Positions 14,385 to 23,135 of a stretch of DNA of 33,066 bases are shown here, piece after piece (the stretch's first letter is position 1; every line of letters starts with the position of its first letter). The translations under genes and the position numbers were made by a program. The notes beneath the pieces are model-generated. The model was not told the origin of the DNA. It searched no databases and saw only the letters and a program-made list of their open reading frames with translations. Source of the DNA: Fretibacterium sp. (GTDB lineage Bacteria; Synergistota; Synergistia; Synergistales; Aminobacteriaceae); contig JAAYOR010000184.1 of assembly GCA_012520235.1 (NCBI GenBank), positions 1 to 33,066 on the forward strand, given 5' to 3'.

Positions 14385-15053
14385 TTGTCGAAACCCACTT
14401 CAGAAGATCGCAGGAGAGATTTCAGAAAGAAGGTCATCCTGGCTCGTCATGGGCGCACGGAATGGAACGATGCGGGTCTCTTTCAGGGTCGGACGGACAT
14501 TCCTCTTAACGAGAAGGGGAAAGACCAGGCTAAAAGGCTGGCGCGCCGTCTGGCCTCCTGGCCCGTTCAGGCTGTGTACGCAAGCCCTCTGACGAGGGCG
14601 CTGGACACTGCCCGAGCCGTGGCTGCCCCTCACGCTCTGGAGCCCGTCGTCCTGAAGGGCCTTGAGGAGATCAATTTCGGGATCTGGGAAGGGCTCTCTG
14701 TGCCCTACCTCGCTGAGCAAGGCGCCCTCTCCGATTGGGAAAAGGACCCTCTTTTCAACGCTCCCGAGGACGGCGAGAGCTGGGAGGCCCTGAGCGAGCG
14801 GGTAGGGCAGGCGCTTGAGACCATTCAGAAGGACGGGTTTGAGCACGTCGTGGTCGTCTCCCACGGGGGTATCATGAGGGTCATCTACGCCCTCCTGGTC
14901 GGTCTGAGCCCCCACACTGTCTGGCGTCTCAGGGTCCACAACTGTGCTATGACCGGGCTGGAGATCTGCGAACATGAGACGGCTATCGTCTTCTCCAACG
15001 ACGACCTGCATCTCCGCGTCTCCCCCGAAGACGCTTCTCTGCCCGTCTGGTGA
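14385..15053 (+). CDS. Histidine phosphatase family protein (phosphoglycerate mutase-like)
   Basis: This is a probable phosphomonoesterase of the branch that contains alpha-ribazole phosphatase (CobC), broad-specificity PhoE-like phosphatases and phosphoserine phosphatases. Numbered from this start (222 residues), ARHGRTEWN lies at 20-28 with nucleophile His22, Glu95 is in LEEINFGIWEG and the second His160 is in VVVSHGG. The start is a TTG with GGGAGG 8 bases upstream. A longer in-frame ORF from 14283 is rejected because it lacks a ribosome-binding site and would begin ahead of the predicted transcription start. No cobalamin genes are present, so the substrate is open. It is 94 bases before the sigma factor and may be co-transcribed with it. 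Confidence 0.88.
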   Translation: MSKPTSEDRRRDFRKKVILARHGRTEWNDAGLFQGRTDIPLNEKGKDQAKRLARRLASWPVQAVYASPLTRALDTARAVAAPHALEPVVLKGLEEINFGIWEGLSVPYLAEQGALSDWEKDPLFNAPEDGESWEALSERVGQALETIQKDGFEHVVVVSHGGIMRVIYALLVGLSPHTVWRLRVHNCAMTGLEICEHETAIVFSNDDLHLRVSPEDASLPVW

Positions 15054-15147
15054 GGGGCGAGGTCGCGTCCTTTTTCCGGCTTCCGGCGCGCCAGTAAACT
15101 GAAAAAATTCATGTTGCGACCAAGAGGGCCGCATGGAGGCGAAAGCG

Positions 15148-15741
15148 ATGGCGAATGCCAGGCAAAGAGACCCGGGAGATGAAAAGGCTCGCCTGAGCCC
15201 GGAGGAGGAGCGTGAGCTCTGGCGGCTGAGCCGGGGGGGCTCCATGGAGGCGCGGGAGCGCCTCATCGTTGCCTATCGCCCTTTGGTGTTCTGGCTGGCC
15301 TCCCGTCTTCACGTGCGCCCATCCCTGAAACAGGACGTCATCCAGGAGGGGATGGTGGCGCTGATTGAGGCTACGGACCGCTTCCTTCCCGAGAGAGGTC
15401 TGTGCTTTTCCACCTACGCCTGTCACCGCATCCGTGGCCGCATGATCAACTTGTTGGAACGCTCCGAGGGGCGTGCGCCTATTCCGGTGCCGGACGAGTG
15501 GCTTGTCGTGGATCCGGAGCCGGAGGACGACAGGGCCCTATTTCTGGACGTTGCCGATTGCATCGCCAGGTTGGAGGGGCGGGAGGCTGAGGTGGTCTCC
15601 GCGCTCTTCTTTGAGGGCAAGCGCCCGGCAGAGGTGGCCGACGAACAGAAGCTGGACATCAGCCATGTCTACCGGTTGAGGCGCAGAGCTGTGGCCCGCA
15701 TCAGGGCCTGGCTGGGTCTCAACCGGGAACCCGCCCCCTGA
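15148..15741 (+). CDS. Sigma-70 family RNA polymerase sigma factor (regions 2 and 4)
   Basis: This is a small alternative sigma factor of about 197 residues. Region 2 spans the segment from LIVAYRPLVFWLASRLHVRP through DVIQEGMVALIEATDRF and CFSTYACHRIRGRMINLLER; the TYA and IRG core-binding and -10-recognition motifs are clear. An acidic linker (VVDPEPEDDRA) follows, then region 4 with EGREAEVVSALFFEGKRPAE and the helix-turn-helix DISHVYRLRRRAVARIRAWL. Region 3 is missing, so it resembles short group 3 or ECF-like factors; the region 2 style is nearer to the former. GGAGG lies 8 bases before the ATG at 15148. A start five codons earlier (15133) is possible but has a weaker site. Next comes a single-pass membrane protein and then bamA, so an envelope-related regulon is a fair guess. 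Confidence 0.88.
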   Translation: MANARQRDPGDEKARLSPEEERELWRLSRGGSMEARERLIVAYRPLVFWLASRLHVRPSLKQDVIQEGMVALIEATDRFLPERGLCFSTYACHRIRGRMINLLERSEGRAPIPVPDEWLVVDPEPEDDRALFLDVADCIARLEGREAEVVSALFFEGKRPAEVADEQKLDISHVYRLRRRAVARIRAWLGLNREPAP

Positions 15742-15918
15742 GGAGCGAGAGAACGAAAAAAGGAATGCGCTCCGTATTACAAAAAACCACAAAAGGCGGA
15801 GAGCATGGGATACATCTCTGCATGGGCTGGTTATTATCATCATTATATGTATAATCTTTAATTACCGCCGAGGCTTCGAGAACATGAGGCCTTCGGGCAT
15901 GGAAGGAAGCTGTCGGGC
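15742..15918. promoter_or_regulatory. Gap with -10-like sequence before the membrane protein gene
   Basis: An A/T-rich stretch at 15828-15865 contains TATAAT at 15850-15855. The position 17 bases upstream holds only CTGGTT, a poor -35. It may provide a separate start for the downstream membrane protein gene and perhaps bamA. No gene is seen in this gap. Confidence 0.3.
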
Positions 15919-16638
15919 ATGAGGGGCGAAAGGTCCGGAATGGAAAGGCGCATCGCCGCCATCGTGAGGTGGCTGGAGCGTTGTCTCAAGGAATATCGAG
16001 CGGGCTCTCTGGAGGGCGCGCTGATGGAGGCTGAGTGCGCGAGAGCGGACATCGAACACCTGCGCCGTGACGTGTGGGCCAGGATGGAGCAGAGGCAGGC
16101 GACCCTCTCAAGGAGAGGAAACCTCAGGGGCCTTCGGAGAAGGCTGCCAGGCGTGTTGGGCTCTGTTTTGCTGTTGTTGTTGCTCACAGCCTCCCCTCTG
16201 TCCGCCCCGAGCCCCAGCAACGACTTCAGCGAGCTTGGAGAGCCTCTACCCCCTCTGGACCTTCAGCCCTGGAGCGCCTCCTTGAGGGAGGTTGAGGTGG
16301 AGGCCGAACGGTTCTCGCGGGTGGATTTTTCCGAGTCCGCACCCACGACCCCACATGAGCTCACCCCTGAACTTGCACTCAAGCCCGGAGCAGGGTCTGA
16401 GAGAAAGCGGCAGAACGTCAGGGCAGTCGCGCAGGCTGAGAGCGGGAGGAGGACTGCTGTCTCTGCCCTTTCCGGAGCGAAGGCAATGAAAAAAAGCGTC
16501 ACTACGGCTCAGCCCTTATCTCCGCAGCCGGAGCCAGAAAAAACGGTGCCGTACGACCACATTTTTTCGCTGCTTCAGACGGGGTCCCGGGCCTTGAAAA
16601 ATGAGGAGCCGGCCATTAAGATTAAGATTGAAAAATAA
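15919..16638 (+). CDS. Single-pass membrane protein of unknown function, possible anti-sigma partner
   Basis: I do not recognise a family. The 239-residue product has an N-terminal part of about 76 residues rich in Arg and Glu and predicted helical (GMERRIAAIVRWLERCLKEY). One hydrophobic segment follows at about 78-95 (LGSVLLLLLLTASPLSA), then a Pro- and Ser-rich low-complexity tail of about 140 residues ending in basic residues. The positive residues just before the membrane segment suggest the N-terminus is cytoplasmic. A cytoplasmic helical domain, one membrane span and an outer tail, encoded right after a sigma factor, is the usual anti-sigma layout, but no zinc-binding or other anti-sigma motif is visible. 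An alternative start is Met8 at 15940. Low complexity makes homology search difficult. Confidence 0.65.
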   Translation: MRGERSGMERRIAAIVRWLERCLKEYRAGSLEGALMEAECARADIEHLRRDVWARMEQRQATLSRRGNLRGLRRRLPGVLGSVLLLLLLTASPLSAPSPSNDFSELGEPLPPLDLQPWSASLREVEVEAERFSRVDFSESAPTTPHELTPELALKPGAGSERKRQNVRAVAQAESGRRTAVSALSGAKAMKKSVTTAQPLSPQPEPEKTVPYDHIFSLLQTGSRALKNEEPAIKIKIEK

Positions 16639-16655
16639 GGGTTGGAAAACCCTTA
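16636..16655 (+). terminator. Small stem-loop at the end of the membrane protein gene
   Basis: TAAGGGTT and AACCCTTA form a perfect 8-bp stem with loop GGAA, starting at the stop codon. No T-run follows, so termination is doubtful. Beyond it, 16681-16740 is unusually A/T-rich and includes the palindrome CTTAATTAAG (16681-16690). This could be a regulatory site before bamA, although no clear -35/-10 pair was found. Confidence 0.3.
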
Positions 16656-16756
16656 AGGGAAACTCCGCTGATTGGAACCTCTTAATTAAGTATTAAGTGG
16701 ATTTAGCCTTAATCACTTTGGTTTTTTATTTTAAGCGTAAGTGAACCGACCGTATT

Positions 16757-16771
16757 GCGCCTCTCAGGCGC
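16757..16771 (+). promoter_or_regulatory. GC-rich hairpin in the bamA leader
   Basis: GCGCCT and AGGCGC flank three bases. The stem lies about 50 bases upstream of the bamA start, followed by an A-rich rather than T-rich run. Possibly an mRNA-stabilising structure. Confidence 0.3.
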
Positions 16772-16819
16772 ATCTTCAAAAAAGAGAGTTTGGGAACGAA
16801 CTGAAGGGAGAGGTGGCCT

Positions 16820-18589
16820 TTGATTCCGAACGGGAACAGCGCCGCGATGAGGAGCATGAAAAATATGTGTGTGGGTGTTCTGTTGTGCGCAGTGATGCTT
16901 ACCTGTTCTGCGGCCCTTGCCTCTGAGGCACCGACAGTTCTTTCCGTCGGGGTCACGGGCAACGAGCGAATCACGTCGGAGTACATCCTGGGGGTTGTGG
17001 AGACGGAGCCGGGCTCTCCTCTGGAGCGCGATATCCTTCAGAAGGATATCGAAGCCATCTACAACCAGGGCTTCTTCTCCTTCGTGGACGTAGAGCTGCG
17101 CCCCGAAGCCACCGGCGTGGCGGTTACCTATTCCGTGCGGGAGAACCCGGTCATCAACACCATCACCTTTACGGGCAACACCATCTATAAGAGCGAGACC
17201 TTGATGAAGGAGGTCTTCTCTCAGGTCGGCACGGTCTTCAACCGGGCTTTTTTCCGCAACGACCTTGACCGCATCCAGGAGCGCTACCACAAGGACGGTT
17301 ACGTGATGGTACGCATCGCCGATGTGAGGGTGGATGACGGGGATATCAACATCTACATCCTTGAGCCCAGGGTGGGCGAGGTCATCATCCAGGGCAACAA
17401 GAAGACGAAGACCCACGTCATCCGCCGCGAGATCAAGCTGAAGAAGGGCGACCTCTTCAACGTGGTACACTTCCGTCACCACCTGGGGAAACTCCAGGCC
17501 ATGGGCTACTTTGAGGACGTCAACGTCGGGTTTGACACCCCCGATGGTCAGGACGACGTGGTGGACCTCATCCTCACAGTCAAGGAGAAGAAGACGGCCT
17601 CCATCGGCCTGAACCTGGCTTACGGGACCGAGAGCGGGTTCAGCGGCGGGCTCACCTACGGCGACACAAACCTCTCCGGGCTAGGCTATAACTTTGAGGT
17701 GGGCTTTGAGGAGGGTGATGAGGCCCGATACTGGGGCAATATTTCCAGCCCTTACATGGACAAGGATACCTTCGCCTGGAGGATTGGGGTCAGCAAGTGG
17801 AACTATGAAGATCGCTTTTATCACTATCAGGGGAAAAAGCAGTTTGAGTACGACGAAAAGGCTCTATCCGCCTACGCGGGGCTGGGCAGGAAATTCGGAC
17901 GAGACGAGGAATGGAGCTGGTTCTTCACCCTGCGCTATCTGGACGTGAAATACAAAAACCTGCACAACGCCATCCCCGGCTACCACGACGACCTGATGAA
18001 GTGGAGCGGGACTAACGTGTCGGCCGAGCTCCAGTTCACCCTGGATCGGAGGGACCCCTACCTGCCCTACCCCAAGGGCTACGTTTGGGAGACTTACCTC
18101 GAACAGGCCCTGGAGGCCCTGGGCAGTGACTTCCAGTACCTGAAATACTGGACGCAGTTCCGCTATTATTACCCGCTGAACCAATTTATCGACGGTCTGG
18201 TGGACGTGGATAACATGTGGACGGAAGACTCCCCTATCCTTTTCGCGGCTCGTATCCGCATCGGCTCTTCCACGAAAGACGAGCTCCCTGCCTTTGCCCG
18301 CTACAGCCTGGGGGGCATCAACAGCCTTCGCGGCTATCACAGCCGTTCCTTTGAGGGTAGCAACGTCATCCTGGGCAACTTTGAGTTGCGCGTACCTGTC
18401 CAGCAGAATTTCTCTCTCGTCGGCTTCTACGACGTAGGACACGCCTCGGGGAGCCTGGATTGGGGCAACCTGAAGGATAACTATGGCATCGGGCTGCGGG
18501 TGAAGACCCCGATGGGCCAGCTCCGCCTGGACTATGCCACGGGCGGCGACGAGGACAGGACATACTTTGGCTTTGGAGAGATGTTCTAG
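16820..18589 (+). CDS. bamA: Outer membrane protein assembly factor BamA, three-POTRA form
   Basis: This is the Omp85-family protein that folds and inserts beta-barrel proteins into the outer membrane. A signal peptide ends at about residue 35 (SAALAS). Three POTRA domains follow at about 40-110, 111-185 and 186-258, each with the conserved final strand pattern (SFVDVEL, MVRIADVRV, YFEDVNVGF). The C-terminal 330 residues are the barrel, with the SLRGY form of the VRGF/Y motif and the terminal Phe typical of outer-membrane proteins. At 589 residues it is much shorter than the five-POTRA E. coli protein. The start is a TTG with GGGAG 9 bases upstream; ATGs at 16847 and 16856 are alternatives that keep the signal peptide. 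Its neighbours are lipid A genes, as in many diderms. Confidence 0.93.
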   Translation: MIPNGNSAAMRSMKNMCVGVLLCAVMLTCSAALASEAPTVLSVGVTGNERITSEYILGVVETEPGSPLERDILQKDIEAIYNQGFFSFVDVELRPEATGVAVTYSVRENPVINTITFTGNTIYKSETLMKEVFSQVGTVFNRAFFRNDLDRIQERYHKDGYVMVRIADVRVDDGDINIYILEPRVGEVIIQGNKKTKTHVIRREIKLKKGDLFNVVHFRHHLGKLQAMGYFEDVNVGFDTPDGQDDVVDLILTVKEKKTASIGLNLAYGTESGFSGGLTYGDTNLSGLGYNFEVGFEEGDEARYWGNISSPYMDKDTFAWRIGVSKWNYEDRFYHYQGKKQFEYDEKALSAYAGLGRKFGRDEEWSWFFTLRYLDVKYKNLHNAIPGYHDDLMKWSGTNVSAELQFTLDRRDPYLPYPKGYVWETYLEQALEALGSDFQYLKYWTQFRYYYPLNQFIDGLVDVDNMWTEDSPILFAARIRIGSSTKDELPAFARYSLGGINSLRGYHSRSFEGSNVILGNFELRVPVQQNFSLVGFYDVGHASGSLDWGNLKDNYGIGLRVKTPMGQLRLDYATGGDEDRTYFGFGEMF

Positions 18590-19850
18590 ACGGAGGCGCC
18601 GAAAAGCTCCGGCTGAAAAACTCAGGGCTGCGGCGATTGTCTTGGGAGCTGCGGCCCTTTTTTTAAATGTGCTCCCCTGCTCTGCGCTGGAGCTGGAGGG
18701 GCTGCCCGATTGGCTGGCTCCCGGGCCCCTCCGGAGCCTGGAGGCAGTCTGGGAGGAGATCCCGGACTCTCCGGACGTGGATCGTCTGAAGACCCTCCAG
18801 CTGGTGGCAGAGCGCCTCCTCTCAGGCTATAGCGTGACCGTGGTCGCCGGACGGGAGGGACCGTGCGTCACCCTCTCACCCCTCACAAAGCACGATTGGG
18901 ACGTGGCTCTGGAGCTCCCGGATCTCCGATCGCCCGTGGACCTCTGGTTTGAGCACGACGTCCGAGGGTTGGACGAGGAGCTACGGGAGCTGGTGCAGTC
19001 CCTACCTCTTGAAGGGCTCTCCTGGGCGGACTCCGCCCTGAGGGGCGAGATCAGCAAGCATGTTGAGGGGCGGCTGCCCGGTTGGGGGATTGCTCTGCAA
19101 ATTCGCCTTTCAGACGACAGAAATACGCTCTGCCTGTCCTTCCGGCCTAATCCGCCTCTCGTCCTTGCCGTGACCCCGACTCTATACTCGGGCACTCTAC
19201 CCGTCATGCTGCAGTCGGACCTCGCGGCCAAGCTGGCCCCCGGCCTCTCGCCCATCATCGGGCTCCCGGTTCCGTGGGTGGCCCGCCATAAGGGTGACAT
19301 CGAGGCTCTGGCTCAGGACTTTCTGAGCGAGCGCCACACGGTGTCGAACGTGCGGGCTAAGGCGAAGGTCTCCTTCACGCCCGGTCAGGTCTCCAGCGCC
19401 TTCGCCTCAGTGGACAGCGAGCGATTCCTCTTCAGAGTCTGGCTGGCTGCCACAGCGGGGATGAGAGGGAGCTATCCCGAGCTGGGTCTGACTCTGGGCT
19501 GGAACACGAGGCATATCACGGGCCTTGACCTGGAGCTCTACGGGGAGGCAGTAGCGGAGCTTGATGACTTCTCCCTGCTAAGACGGCTGGGAGCGCGTTT
19601 CCTGTTCTTCGGTGAGCTTCGGGTCGGTGCGGAGCTTGAATGGCCCGGCTCCGAGCTCTTTTATCGCCTTCAATGGGACGCCTGCCGCCTGAAGCGGCCT
19701 TACCTCTGGTGGCGCTGGGGGCCCGACTGGGGGCATGAGGGCGCTCTTGGTTATCGTTTCACCGAACACGTGTCTCTGGAGCTTTACTACAAGAAACAGA
19801 AGGGCTCGGACCAGGATCGGGTGGGCCTGAGAGGCGTCCTGTCGCTTTAG
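18567..19850 (+). CDS. Exported protein of unknown function between bamA and lpxD
   Basis: I do not recognise this protein. It has an Arg-rich N-terminus (RRRRRK), a hydrophobic segment and a likely cleavage near NVLPCSA, so it is exported. About 380 residues follow. The last 140 residues alternate hydrophobic and polar residues in short aromatic-rich strands (LELYYKKQKG, VGLRGVLSL), which suggests a beta-barrel or beta-rich end in the outer membrane. The gene overlaps the bamA 3' end. An ATG at 18534 gives a 56-base overlap; the TTG at 18567, with AGGA 6 bases upstream, is preferred. In many diderms this position holds skp, but the product is much larger than Skp and not helical. Co-location with bamA and lpx points to outer-membrane biogenesis. 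Confidence 0.7.
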   Translation: MALERCSRRRRRKAPAEKLRAAAIVLGAAALFLNVLPCSALELEGLPDWLAPGPLRSLEAVWEEIPDSPDVDRLKTLQLVAERLLSGYSVTVVAGREGPCVTLSPLTKHDWDVALELPDLRSPVDLWFEHDVRGLDEELRELVQSLPLEGLSWADSALRGEISKHVEGRLPGWGIALQIRLSDDRNTLCLSFRPNPPLVLAVTPTLYSGTLPVMLQSDLAAKLAPGLSPIIGLPVPWVARHKGDIEALAQDFLSERHTVSNVRAKAKVSFTPGQVSSAFASVDSERFLFRVWLAATAGMRGSYPELGLTLGWNTRHITGLDLELYGEAVAELDDFSLLRRLGARFLFFGELRVGAELEWPGSELFYRLQWDACRLKRPYLWWRWGPDWGHEGALGYRFTEHVSLELYYKKQKGSDQDRVGLRGVLSL

Positions 19851-19924: not shown

Positions 19925-20959
19925 ATGACGACATTCACTCTTTTGGAACTGGCTCAGAAACTGAACCTGGAGCTTGTCGGCGATGGAACCCGGACGGTTC
20001 GCTCCGTGACGTCGCCTGAGGACGCCGGTACCTGCGGAGAGGACGCGCTGTGCGTCCTGTGGGATGAGGGCAAGCTTGAAGGGATGCCGGAGCGGCTCCC
20101 GATTCTGGCGCACCGCAGTGCCTTCAAGGGGATGAGGTCCGGCCTGGTCGCTGAAGAGCCGCGTGCGACCCTGCCGGAGCTCCTGTCGCTTTTTCTTCCT
20201 CCGCCGCCTGAGCTGAAGGGCGTTCACCCGAGCGCCACGGTATCCGCAGAGGCTCAGGTTTCGCCTGACGCCTGGGTGGGCCCCGGCTGTGTGGTGGAGG
20301 CTGGGGCTGTCATTGAAGCCGGCGCGCGTCTTGTCGCCGGAGTTTTTGTTGGTGCCGAGGCCTTTGTCGGGGCCGGCACGGTGCTGGAGCCTCATGCGGT
20401 CCTCATGGACGGCGTAAAGGTGGGAAAAAACTGTCTTCTGCACGCGGGCTGCGTCCTGGGCTGCGACGGGTTCGGCTTCCTTCCCTCGCCCGAGGGGCCC
20501 GTCAAGATCCCTCAGGTGGGTTCCGTGCTGGTGGGCGACTTCGTTGAGATTGGGACCTGCACCACCGTGGACCGGGGGACCATCGGGAACACCGAGGTAG
20601 GCAGCGGCACAAAGATAGACAACCATGTGCAGATAGGCCATAACGTAAAAATCGGCCGTAACTGCATCATCTGCGCCATGACCGGCCTTGCGGGCAGCTC
20701 CGTCCTGGAGGATGGGGTGACACTCTCGGTGCAGGTCGGGGTCACCGACCACGTGAGGATAGGACAGGGCGCGGTTCTGGCGGCCCGCACCGGGGCGACC
20801 AATGACGTCCCGTCCGGTGCGATCATGTCTGGGTTCCCTGCGCGTCCTCACATGGCAGCTAAGCGGGCTCAGATGCTGACCCTGGAGCTGCCCGATCTCT
20901 TCAAGCGATTGCGCCGCCTTGAGCGGCTCCTGGCTTCCTCGGACGGAAAGGAGAGCTGA
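19925..20959 (+). CDS. lpxD: UDP-3-O-acylglucosamine N-acyltransferase LpxD
   Basis: This enzyme adds the second hydroxyacyl chain from acyl-ACP to UDP-3-O-acyl-glucosamine, the third step of lipid A synthesis. In 344 residues there is an N-terminal uridine-binding-like domain (about 1-98) and a left-handed beta-helix of hexapeptide repeats from about HPSATVSAEAQV (101-112) to VRIGQGAVLAAR (277-288). The catalytic histidine is His239 in NHVQIGHNVKIG. GCDGFGF (179-185) and the C-terminal helix (from about 318) are also typical. GAGG lies about 8 bases before the ATG. lpxC follows after two bases, so the genes form an operon. No residue expected for activity is missing. Confidence 0.95.
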   Translation: MTTFTLLELAQKLNLELVGDGTRTVRSVTSPEDAGTCGEDALCVLWDEGKLEGMPERLPILAHRSAFKGMRSGLVAEEPRATLPELLSLFLPPPPELKGVHPSATVSAEAQVSPDAWVGPGCVVEAGAVIEAGARLVAGVFVGAEAFVGAGTVLEPHAVLMDGVKVGKNCLLHAGCVLGCDGFGFLPSPEGPVKIPQVGSVLVGDFVEIGTCTTVDRGTIGNTEVGSGTKIDNHVQIGHNVKIGRNCIICAMTGLAGSSVLEDGVTLSVQVGVTDHVRIGQGAVLAARTGATNDVPSGAIMSGFPARPHMAAKRAQMLTLELPDLFKRLRRLERLLASSDGKES

Positions 20960-20961
20960 GC

Positions 20962-21795
20962 GTGAAGCGGTTTCGCCGCCTCACCCGTCCCGTCGTCCTC
21001 TCCGGCAGAGGCCTGCATTCGGGGGCCGATTGTTCCTGCGTCATCGAGCCCTCCGAGACCGGGCTCTCTCTCTCCGCGGGCGGGGGGCCCGACATACCCC
21101 TGTATCTGCTAGCTCTTGCAGGGGACGGGAGGGGTTCGGACTGCATCTTCCCTGATGGGACGCGGATCCGCACCTGTGAGCACGTCCTGGCAGCTCTGGC
21201 TGGCACAGGGGTCTGGTGCGCCTCCATCCGGGTCGAAGGGCCCGAGATGCCGGCCTTGGATGGCTGCGCGCTGGAGGCGGCGGAACAGATCTTTGAATGC
21301 TCAGAGCAGGCGCATGGCCCTGCTCCCCTGGACCTGCCCTTTGCAGTCAAGGTGGGGGACACGGAGCGCTTTGTCGCGGCCTTCCCCGCCTCAAACCTGG
21401 CTTTGACCTGTGTTGTGAGCTACGATTCCCCCTTCATCGGAAGCCAGATCTTTGACTTTAAGGGGGGAGCGGAGTGTTTCCTCAAAGAGATTGCTCCGGC
21501 CCGGACCTTTGCCAAGGCCTCCGAACTGGAGACCTTGCGGGAGCAGGGCATGGCTCTGGGAGGGACTTCAGAGAACGCTATTCTGGTGGGCGAGGACGGC
21601 GTTCGGGCCAAGGGAGGCCTGCGCTGGTCTGACGAGTTTGTCCGGCACAAGGTTCTGGACCTCATCGGCGATCTGGCTGTCCTGGGGCGTCCTTTGAACG
21701 CTCATGTCGTGGCTGTCCGGGGCGGGCACTCACTGCATCTGCGCCTGGCGGAGCGCCTTAAGGCTCTTGCGGGGCCATCCGGCCATTCATCATAA
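20962..21795 (+). CDS. lpxC: UDP-3-O-acyl-N-acetylglucosamine deacetylase LpxC
   Basis: This zinc enzyme carries out the committed step of lipid A synthesis. Its 277 residues show both LpxC halves. GRGLHSG (15-21) comes first; EHVLAAL (73-79) supplies Glu73 and zinc ligand His74; FVRHKVLDLIGDL (226-238) supplies His229 and Asp233; GGHSLHL (254-260) supplies the catalytic His256. The start is a GTG with AGGAG 8 bases upstream, two bases after the lpxD stop. It is somewhat shorter than the E. coli enzyme (305 residues). LpxC and FabZ are separate here, unlike the fused protein of Bacteroidota. Confidence 0.94.
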   Translation: MKRFRRLTRPVVLSGRGLHSGADCSCVIEPSETGLSLSAGGGPDIPLYLLALAGDGRGSDCIFPDGTRIRTCEHVLAALAGTGVWCASIRVEGPEMPALDGCALEAAEQIFECSEQAHGPAPLDLPFAVKVGDTERFVAAFPASNLALTCVVSYDSPFIGSQIFDFKGGAECFLKEIAPARTFAKASELETLREQGMALGGTSENAILVGEDGVRAKGGLRWSDEFVRHKVLDLIGDLAVLGRPLNAHVVAVRGGHSLHLRLAERLKALAGPSGHSS

Positions 21796-21827: not shown

Positions 21828-22313
21828 ATGGAATTTATGGATATCACCGATATCATGGGGATGTTGAAGCAACGGTACCCCTTCCTGATGGTGGACCGCA
21901 TCCTGGAGTACAGCGAAGATCACGTCGTGGGGTACAAAAACGTGACGATCAACGAGCCTTTCTTTCAGGGGCATTTTCCGGGCGACCCGGTCATGCCGGG
22001 CGTCATGATCCTGGAGTCTATGGGGCAGGTGGCCTCTATCATGGTCTCCGTGCGTCTGGGCAAGGATCTGGGCGGGAAGATAGCTTTTCTGGCCGGGGTG
22101 GACGGTGCGCGCTTCCGCAAGCCGGTCCGGCCCGGTGACCAGCTGCTGACGCGAGCGGAGCTGACGCGCCTGAGGGGACCTATCGGCAAGACGAAGGTGA
22201 AGGCCTACGTGGACGATGAGATTGTGGCGGAATGTGAGTTCATGTTCATGGTGGGGAACTCCCTGGACAAAGCTGACAAAAATGACAAAAAAGCCCCTGA
22301 GAGCGAGGAATGA
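21828..22313 (+). CDS. fabZ: 3-hydroxyacyl-ACP dehydratase FabZ
   Basis: This enzyme dehydrates 3-hydroxyacyl-ACP in fatty acid elongation and so competes with LpxA and LpxD for the same acyl substrates. The 161-residue hot-dog-fold protein has the catalytic His49 in FFQGHFPGDPVMPG (45-58) and Glu63 in ILESMGQ (61-67). RYPFLMVDR (16-24) is conserved. The charged C-terminal tail (KADKNDKKAPESEE) is an extension beyond the fold. GAGGAGG lies about 10 bases before the ATG; Met4 at 21837 is another possible start. It is placed between lpxC and lpxA, a common order in diderms. Confidence 0.95.
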   Translation: MEFMDITDIMGMLKQRYPFLMVDRILEYSEDHVVGYKNVTINEPFFQGHFPGDPVMPGVMILESMGQVASIMVSVRLGKDLGGKIAFLAGVDGARFRKPVRPGDQLLTRAELTRLRGPIGKTKVKAYVDDEIVAECEFMFMVGNSLDKADKNDKKAPESEE

Positions 22314-22319
22314 GGGTCG

Positions 22320-23135
22320 ATGAGCGTGCTTGTCCATCCCTCCGCACAGGTGGCTGACGGTGCGGAGCTGGCTGAAGGGGTTGTCGTCGGCCCTTACTGT
22401 GTGGTAGGCTCCAGGGTCTGCATCGGAGCGGGCTCCCGACTTGAAGCTTTTGTCCGAGTCCACGACTTTGTGACCCTGGGGTCGGACTGTTGCGTCCATG
22501 AGAACACCGTCCTGGGGGGAGCCCCTCAGGACCGCTCCTACAAGGGCGAGGAGACCTGGCTCCACATCGGCGACGGGAACATCATCCGCGAGAACGTCAC
22601 CATCAACCGGGGCACCGGCGAGGGAGGCGAGACAGTCGTCGGGGATCGCTGTTTTTTGATGGCCGGGGTACATCTGGCCCATAACGTGAGATTGGGGGAC
22701 GAGGTGACGCTGACCAACAACGTGCCGCTGGCCGGATATGTCACGGTAGGCAGCCACACGGTCTTTGGGGGTATGTCGGGGGCGCACCAGTTTACCCGCG
22801 TTGGAAGTTATTGCATGATCGGGGGGCTTTATCGCGTCATAAAGGACGTGCCACCCTATACCCTGGCCTCAGGCGACCCTCTGCGTCTCAAGGGCCTGAA
22901 CTCCGTCGGGCTCCGGCGCGCCGGCTTCTCTGCCGCGATGCGAAGGGATATCCTGAACTTTTACAGGAGGCTCTACCGAAAGGATGTTCTCTTCTCACAG
23001 TCGTTGAAGGAGGCCCTGGCTGAAAAGGAGTCGCTTGCGCCGGAGCTTCGGGTGATCCTGGATTTTTATGAGGGCAGCCGGAGAGGCGTCACTTTCTGGG
23101 ACACCTCGGGTCATTCGGCTCACGAGCCGGACTGA
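22320..23135 (+). CDS. lpxA: UDP-N-acetylglucosamine acyltransferase LpxA
   Basis: This is the first enzyme of lipid A synthesis and transfers a 3-hydroxyacyl chain from ACP to UDP-GlcNAc. The 271-residue protein is a left-handed beta-helix (about 1-185) with the catalytic His121 in GVHLAHNVRLGD. GGAPQDRSYKGEET (66-79) and IRENVTINRGT (89-99) are characteristic. A C-terminal helical domain with LRRAGFSAAMRRDI and FYRRLYRK (about 200-225) is as in other LpxA proteins. It begins 6 bases after the fabZ stop, with GAGGG just upstream. lpxB and lpxI/H are not in the window. No key residue is missing. Confidence 0.95.
   Translation: MSVLVHPSAQVADGAELAEGVVVGPYCVVGSRVCIGAGSRLEAFVRVHDFVTLGSDCCVHENTVLGGAPQDRSYKGEETWLHIGDGNIIRENVTINRGTGEGGETVVGDRCFLMAGVHLAHNVRLGDEVTLTNNVPLAGYVTVGSHTVFGGMSGAHQFTRVGSYCMIGGLYRVIKDVPPYTLASGDPLRLKGLNSVGLRRAGFSAAMRRDILNFYRRLYRKDVLFSQSLKEALAEKESLAPELRVILDFYEGSRRGVTFWDTSGHSAHEPD

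Follow-up and report, generated by a model that had tools for sequence, protein, structure and literature searches.

How diderm bacteria outside Proteobacteria sense trouble in their outer membrane is largely an open question. In E. coli, sigmaE raises the beta-barrel assembly machinery (BAM) (PMC8081527). We analyzed a locus of Fretibacterium sp. (Synergistota; assembly GCA_012520235.1) in which the gene of a short sigma factor (SIG) and that of a single-pass membrane protein (MEM) precede bamA and lipid A (lpx) genes, and asked whether it is an envelope control unit and how far it extends beyond this lineage. The window, that is, the whole stretch analyzed, is contig JAAYOR010000184.1 in its entirety (33,066 nt of a 2.33-Mb genome). 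An initial annotation, made from the DNA alone, had described this gene arrangement, which Pfam, NCBIfam and gene order confirmed, and had proposed that the pair might be a lineage-specific envelope stress switch. The same module was found in Negativicutes, which belong to another phylum, so that the lineage-specific part has to be given up. The pair itself held up as a unit, but the annotation had overlooked a third co-inherited gene, which encodes a second outer-membrane protein (OMP2) and lies beyond bamA. We consider it fairly probable that SIG, MEM and OMP2 make up a sigma/anti-sigma-type module of trans-envelope gene control around bamA, tied to outer-membrane assembly.

A gene module around bamA in two phyla

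Pfam matches and position give the run histidine phosphatase (HPase), SIG, MEM, bamA, OMP2, lpxD, lpxC, fabZ and lpxA in the window (Table 1). Among the genome of the window and 40 relatives, 36 of the 41 had a strong match to SIG and 35 a match to MEM; where MEM was too diverged for BLAST in a Synergistota locus, the open frame that separates SIG from bamA was taken to be MEM. In 35/36 Synergistales loci the order HPase-SIG-MEM-bamA-OMP2-lpxD-lpxC-fabZ-lpxA is conserved to the extent that the contigs reach, and the phosphatase gene that begins the run is found 5' of SIG in nearly all Synergistota loci. A sigma profile detected SIG in 157 of 188 Synergistota genomes, and in the deep families f11 and f12 it also lies directly 5' of bamA.

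Two of the 80 loci listed by a genome scan with the sigma alignment belonged to Negativicutes (diderm Bacillota). The Negativicutes locus L156 reads tamB-SIG-MEM-bamA-OMP2-skp, an arrangement found in most of the group: SIG is present in 120 of 150 Negativicutes genomes and SIG-MEM-bamA in 21 of the 22 loci read, the exception being L208 with SIG beside tamB. Over both phyla, 169 of 170 SIG loci carry MEM on the same strand with a median gap of 46 nt, so the adjacency is not due to chance. Armatimonadota were rejected as a further host. Only one of their 201 genomes (UBA11051; L154, L210) gave a SIG-specific match, and since its phosphatase-SIG arrangement is that of Synergistota, the contig is probably misbinned.

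The MEM proteins of the two phyla have low sequence identity. However, their full-length profiles align with 96-97% hhalign probability, those of the N-terminal helical hairpins alone with 92% and those of the C-terminal parts with 74%; swapped controls, in which a hairpin was aligned with a C-terminus, stayed below 1%. Both groups are bridged by the MEM of L219, a deep Synergistota locus, which matches the profiles of Synergistota (2e-10) and Negativicutes (1e-13). In the sigma gene tree, SIG of Synergistota and Negativicutes did not form one supported clade and the branches were long. As the tree does not settle the point, the cross-phylum claim rests on gene order, the MEM profiles and OMP2, whose profiles from the two phyla align at E 2e-35 (hhalign). 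The SIG-MEM module is common to Synergistota and Negativicutes.

OMP2 had no Pfam or NCBIfam match, the Omp85 and POTRA families included. Its AlphaFold 2 model (predicted local distance difference test, pLDDT, 94; predicted TM-score, pTM, 0.82) shows beta-alpha-alpha-beta-beta units like those of POTRA domains, and a barrel of about 10-11 strands. All 50 Foldseek matches listed were Omp85 proteins (BamA, TamA, CdiB, Toc75), with E-values down to 1.6e-10 and low TM-scores (0.16-0.25), the OMP2 barrel being shorter. From the model, OMP2 is predicted to be a mini-Omp85. Every locus read that had SIG and MEM also had the OMP2 gene just 3' of bamA, as in the window and at L156:8270-9604.

The three genes are also co-inherited. 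SIG, MEM and OMP2 were concordant, all present or all absent, in 76/76 bamA loci. MEM and OMP2 accompany SIG in 44 of 44 loci, and the 32 loci with bamA and no SIG (6 Synergistota and 26 Negativicutes) have neither beside bamA; for OMP2, this absence refers in most loci to the roughly 1.5 kb next to bamA. SIG changes nine times on the BamA tree, and supported branches force eight of these changes. In 8/8 independent pairs (p 0.008) MEM and OMP2 change in the same way as SIG. Given that SIG and MEM are 5' and OMP2 is 3' of bamA, a single deletion sparing bamA cannot explain the joint loss. A genome-wide search for MEM in 29 Negativicutes without SIG found none, save one weak match (G305), a 497-aa kinase-like protein that we attribute to chance. 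Five Negativicutes of the L208 type have SIG by tamB and MEM-bamA elsewhere in the genome, both genes being kept, and MEM without SIG was not found among the complete loci and the Negativicutes genomes tested. The pair is thus kept side by side among relatives and lost as a unit, and the absence of such conservation, which the initial annotation had named as decisive against its proposal, is not what we observed.

Some apparent losses were discarded. The Synergistota loci L234, L235 and L237, in which SIG is missing, are at contig ends and still have MEM and OMP2; the Negativicutes genome G326 (L243) has a MEM tail and OMP2 at a contig edge and was excluded from the joint-loss set. A side observation concerns G006 (L221/L076), in which no SIG was detected and MEM is recognisable by its C-terminal helix alone, within a 1049-aa open frame 5' of bamA, possibly by sequencing frameshifts. 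As a separate observation, BamA tends to be longer in Negativicutes without SIG (median 725 aa vs 600), the extra part being N-terminal (L241-L267 vs L156, L190-L209).

The joint losses bear on one alternative, that SIG does not regulate envelope genes at all and that linkage has kept the genes of an old operon together. Envelope clusters are generally conserved (PMC5007114), and transcription of the Synergistota operon may start at a housekeeping-like promoter 5' of the phosphatase gene (see below). Linkage does not account, however, for at least eight joint losses of SIG, MEM and OMP2 from the two flanks of a bamA that stayed, nor for SIG and MEM both being retained when unlinked, and we judge this explanation very unlikely.

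The sigma factor, its membrane partner and the element before MEM

The open reading frame of SIG (15133-15741) has two candidate ATGs, at 15133 and 15148. The second, chosen in the initial annotation, is preferred because GGAGG (15136-15140) precedes it by about 8 nt. Region 2 was clear (Sigma70_r2, PF04542, 55.2 bits against a cut-off of 24, E 6.4e-15). Region 4 scored below its cut-off (Sigma70_r4, PF04545, 21.7 bits against 24.1, E 1.4e-4), with its helical fold confidently predicted. The general model TIGR02937 gave 81.3 bits (cut-off 42.9). Neither Pfam nor NCBIfam gave a match to region 3, so that SIG has regions 2 and 4 only, as in extracytoplasmic function (ECF, group 4) factors. Nonetheless, the nearest NCBIfam families after TIGR02937 were the WhiG, SigG and FliA types and not ECF factors, and the closest sigma in the PDB was WhiG (6pfj, E 1e-23). 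The AlphaFold 2 pLDDT was above 90 over most of its length.

MEM starts at ATG 15940 (MERRI...), a position common to its relatives (MERRI/MEKRI). From the N-terminus, it comprises a helical hairpin, a stretch rich in arginine, a single hydrophobic span, about 110 residues of low complexity and, at the C-terminus, a conserved helix. The arginine-rich stretch before the span indicates, by the positive-inside rule, an N-in/C-out orientation. The helical cytoplasmic N-terminus, the single span and the low-complexity tail agree with the initial annotation, in which the closing helix (VPYDHIFSLLQTGSRALKN...) had gone unnoticed. This helix is conserved in both phyla in the alignment and was predicted (residues 469-483 of the fused model described below, pLDDT about 83) at the end of a linker predicted to be disordered. 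The hairpin is the most conserved part of the protein in the alignments.

Such a layout could also belong to an assembly factor anchored in the inner membrane and acting with BamA and OMP2, in which case SIG would only set the amount of the unit. bamA is flanked by MEM and OMP2, MEM keeps its place directly 5' of bamA in genomes where SIG is elsewhere, the conserved C-terminal helix of MEM is periplasmic, and the promoter-like element described next sits before MEM. All this would suit an assembly factor. Its best-conserved part, however, is the cytoplasmic hairpin, which would have no assembly role unless it binds something cytoplasmic, and no complete locus or Negativicutes genome tested had MEM and lacked SIG. 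We regard this alternative as unlikely.

In Negativicutes the SIG-MEM gap contains a conserved promoter-like element, CCANAATCTGGNNNCTTNNCANGAYTATA in one large group. Its 29-bp form was matched in 27 of 28 Negativicutes genomes, once in 25 and twice in two (the extra match carrying 3 mismatches), and the reversed control gave 0. The GAYTATA core was found before MEM in 32/48 Negativicutes loci against 1.8 expected, a count over related loci and not of independent events. The same core appeared before SIG in 0/44 and before bamA in 2/26 of the genomes without SIG. Genomes in which the pair is unlinked keep the element before MEM (GGTTCAC-N16-ACGATTATATA). Its CGAT core resembles the -10 sequence of the sigma-28 type, and would suit the WhiG/FliA-like region 2 of SIG.

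The position of this element directly 5' of MEM is what would be expected if MEM were only a target of SIG or a positive partner, for example a SIG-dependent envelope protein, SIG being controlled another way. In Synergistota, however, SIG and MEM are usually a few tens of nucleotides apart with no such element, and no obvious client other than SIG suggests itself for the cytoplasmic hairpin. We find this explanation quite improbable.

A probable sigma/anti-sigma-type switch and its closest known systems

SIG has a constant partner that spans the membrane once and is conserved both in its cytoplasmic helices and at its periplasmic tip, which makes a sigma/anti-sigma-type switch the simplest reading. 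The co-inheritance of SIG-MEM with a mini-Omp85 beside bamA suggests the outer-membrane assembly machine as the thing sensed. What we infer about binding between SIG and MEM, the sign of the control, its signal and its regulon can be put as follows. The cytoplasmic hairpin of MEM would hold SIG in check, or deliver it. MEM would cross the inner membrane once and span the periplasm by a long flexible linker tipped with the conserved helix, which may read the state of outer-membrane assembly via OMP2, the POTRA domains of BamA or substrate left unassembled. A disturbance of assembly would make MEM free SIG, which would then drive envelope genes; in Negativicutes its targets probably include the MEM-bamA-OMP2 unit, via the conserved element 5' of MEM.

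Several results weigh against a switch of this kind. No known anti-sigma domain was found in MEM with Pfam, in which the RseA N-terminal, FecR and RsgI N-terminal domains all failed to match. The window MEM matched nothing in Pfam up to E 1, nothing in NCBIfam and no PDB chain at a meaningful E-value, the Negativicutes MEM had no Pfam match to any anti-sigma family, and the zinc-binding anti-sigma (ZAS) motif HxxxCxxC was absent from the N-terminus of the window MEM and from the MEM alignment. This agrees with the initial annotation, which had reported no known anti-sigma motif. A read-through fusion could be modelled because both genes are in one frame (TGA after SIG, TAA in the gap). The fused AlphaFold 2 model, built with 76 relatives of which 16 were fused, gave a pTM of 0.36, without predicted aligned error or coordinates. 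Covariation of SIG and MEM over 74 Synergistota loci (mutual information with average product correction) was no higher than for the BamA, OMP2 and phosphatase controls, and in mean-field direct coupling analysis of 141 SIG-MEM pairs the signal was dominated by the phylum split. Neither the fused model nor coevolution establishes an interface. Promoters add to this: a shared GAYTATA-type element was not found in Synergistota, and TATAAT lies within 150 nt 5' of the phosphatase gene in 45/87 Synergistota loci against 7.3 expected, so that the operon may start there from a housekeeping promoter. Control of bamA by SIG is thus unsupported in Synergistota.

By its general layout (cytoplasmic helices, one span, periplasmic part) MEM is like the transmembrane anti-sigmas, and it has the single span, cytoplasmic N-terminus and place beside a sigma gene of the RseA/MucA type. 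E. coli sigmaE/RseA (with DegS and RseP) likewise combines a sigma and a single-pass inner-membrane protein with a helical cytoplasmic part, linked to outer-membrane assembly. However, region 2 of SIG is closest to WhiG/FliA and not to ECF factors, MEM has neither the RseA_N domain nor sequence resemblance to RseA, bamA is here in the same gene run and OMP2 has no counterpart there. FecI/FecR/FecA also pairs a sigma with a single-pass regulator with a periplasmic C-terminus and an outer-membrane protein with a periplasmic domain, but MEM lacks the FecR domain (Pfam) and OMP2 is Omp85-like and not a TonB-dependent receptor. Most simply, SIG-MEM would work like one of these two systems, by analogy, being a member of neither by the tests done. 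SigI/RsgI of Clostridia joins a sigma without the usual set of regions to a single-pass regulator with an outside domain, the N-terminus of RsgI not being a helical hairpin. SIG differs in having region 4, and MEM has no RsgI_N match. WhiG/RsiG (6pfj, 7lq4; PMC8325347) includes the closest solved relative of SIG and an anti-sigma that is a helical coiled-coil hairpin. RsiG is, however, soluble and binds cyclic di-GMP, while MEM is membrane-anchored without a sequence match, and SIG has no region 3.

The Negativicutes outer-membrane cluster with tamB, bamA, skp and lpx genes has been described (Antunes et al., 2016, PMC5007114); the accessible part of that paper mentions hypothetical proteins and no sigma factor. 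A published description of the SIG-MEM pair was not found in the accessible papers, including those on this cluster. Our data point to an undescribed switch that couples gene expression to outer-membrane state. If true, this pair of a sigma and a membrane protein, tied to bamA in two phyla, would be a candidate for a general, sigmaE-independent envelope control of Terrabacteria. A bolder version, which we put forward tentatively and with some doubt, is that SIG-MEM-OMP2 may be an ancient sensor of outer-membrane assembly in diderm Terrabacteria, made of three parts and without sequence relationship to sigmaE/RseA. The periplasmic helix at the C-terminus of MEM would be read by OMP2 or the BamA POTRA domains, transcription would track the state of BAM directly, and the sensor would have been lost repeatedly with change in BamA. 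The repeated loss of the three genes with bamA retained offers a natural experiment and narrows down the genes of interest, and MEM and OMP2 are conserved families that match nothing in Pfam, NCBIfam or the PDB.

Features of the window

Table 1. Features of the SIG-MEM-bamA locus, in positions of the window
Feature	Position	Strand	Basis or remark
Histidine phosphatase (HPase)	14412..15053	+	Pfam His_Phos_1 E 7e-60; directly 5' of SIG
SIG, short sigma-70-family factor	15148..15741	+	Pfam/NCBIfam; regions 2 and 4
SIG-MEM intergenic gap	15742..15939	.	198 nt; contains TATAAT
MEM, single-pass membrane protein, candidate anti-sigma or sensor, 232 aa	15940..16638	+	Family conserved in Synergistota and Negativicutes
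MEM N-terminal cytoplasmic helical hairpin, about residues 1-62	15940..16125	+	Alignments; AlphaFold 2 helices, pLDDT 88-96
MEM transmembrane span, about residues 69-90	16144..16209	+	Sequence; AlphaFold 2 helix runs through most of the span
MEM conserved periplasmic C-terminal helix, around SLLQTGSRALKN, then PAIKI	16552..16596	+	AlphaFold 2, alignment, hhalign
bamA	16847..18589	+	Pfam POTRA x3 and Omp85 barrel
OMP2, second outer-membrane protein, predicted mini-Omp85	18534..19850	+	AlphaFold 2, Foldseek; start overlaps the end of bamA
lpxD-like acyltransferase	19925..20959	+	Hexapeptide repeats; position and gene order
lpxC	20962..21795	+	Pfam LpxC E 1.5e-65
fabZ	21828..22313	+	Pfam FabA-like
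lpxA	22320..23135	+	Pfam Acetyltransf_11 and hexapeptide repeats

The SIG-MEM gap of the window (198 nt) is unusually long for Synergistota. It carries CATTATATG and TATAAT, and could hold an internal promoter. In several Synergistota (L061, L062, L066, L068, L072, L074 and L075) fliA is located about 6-10 kb 5' of SIG, which places the outer-membrane run near a flagellar cluster.

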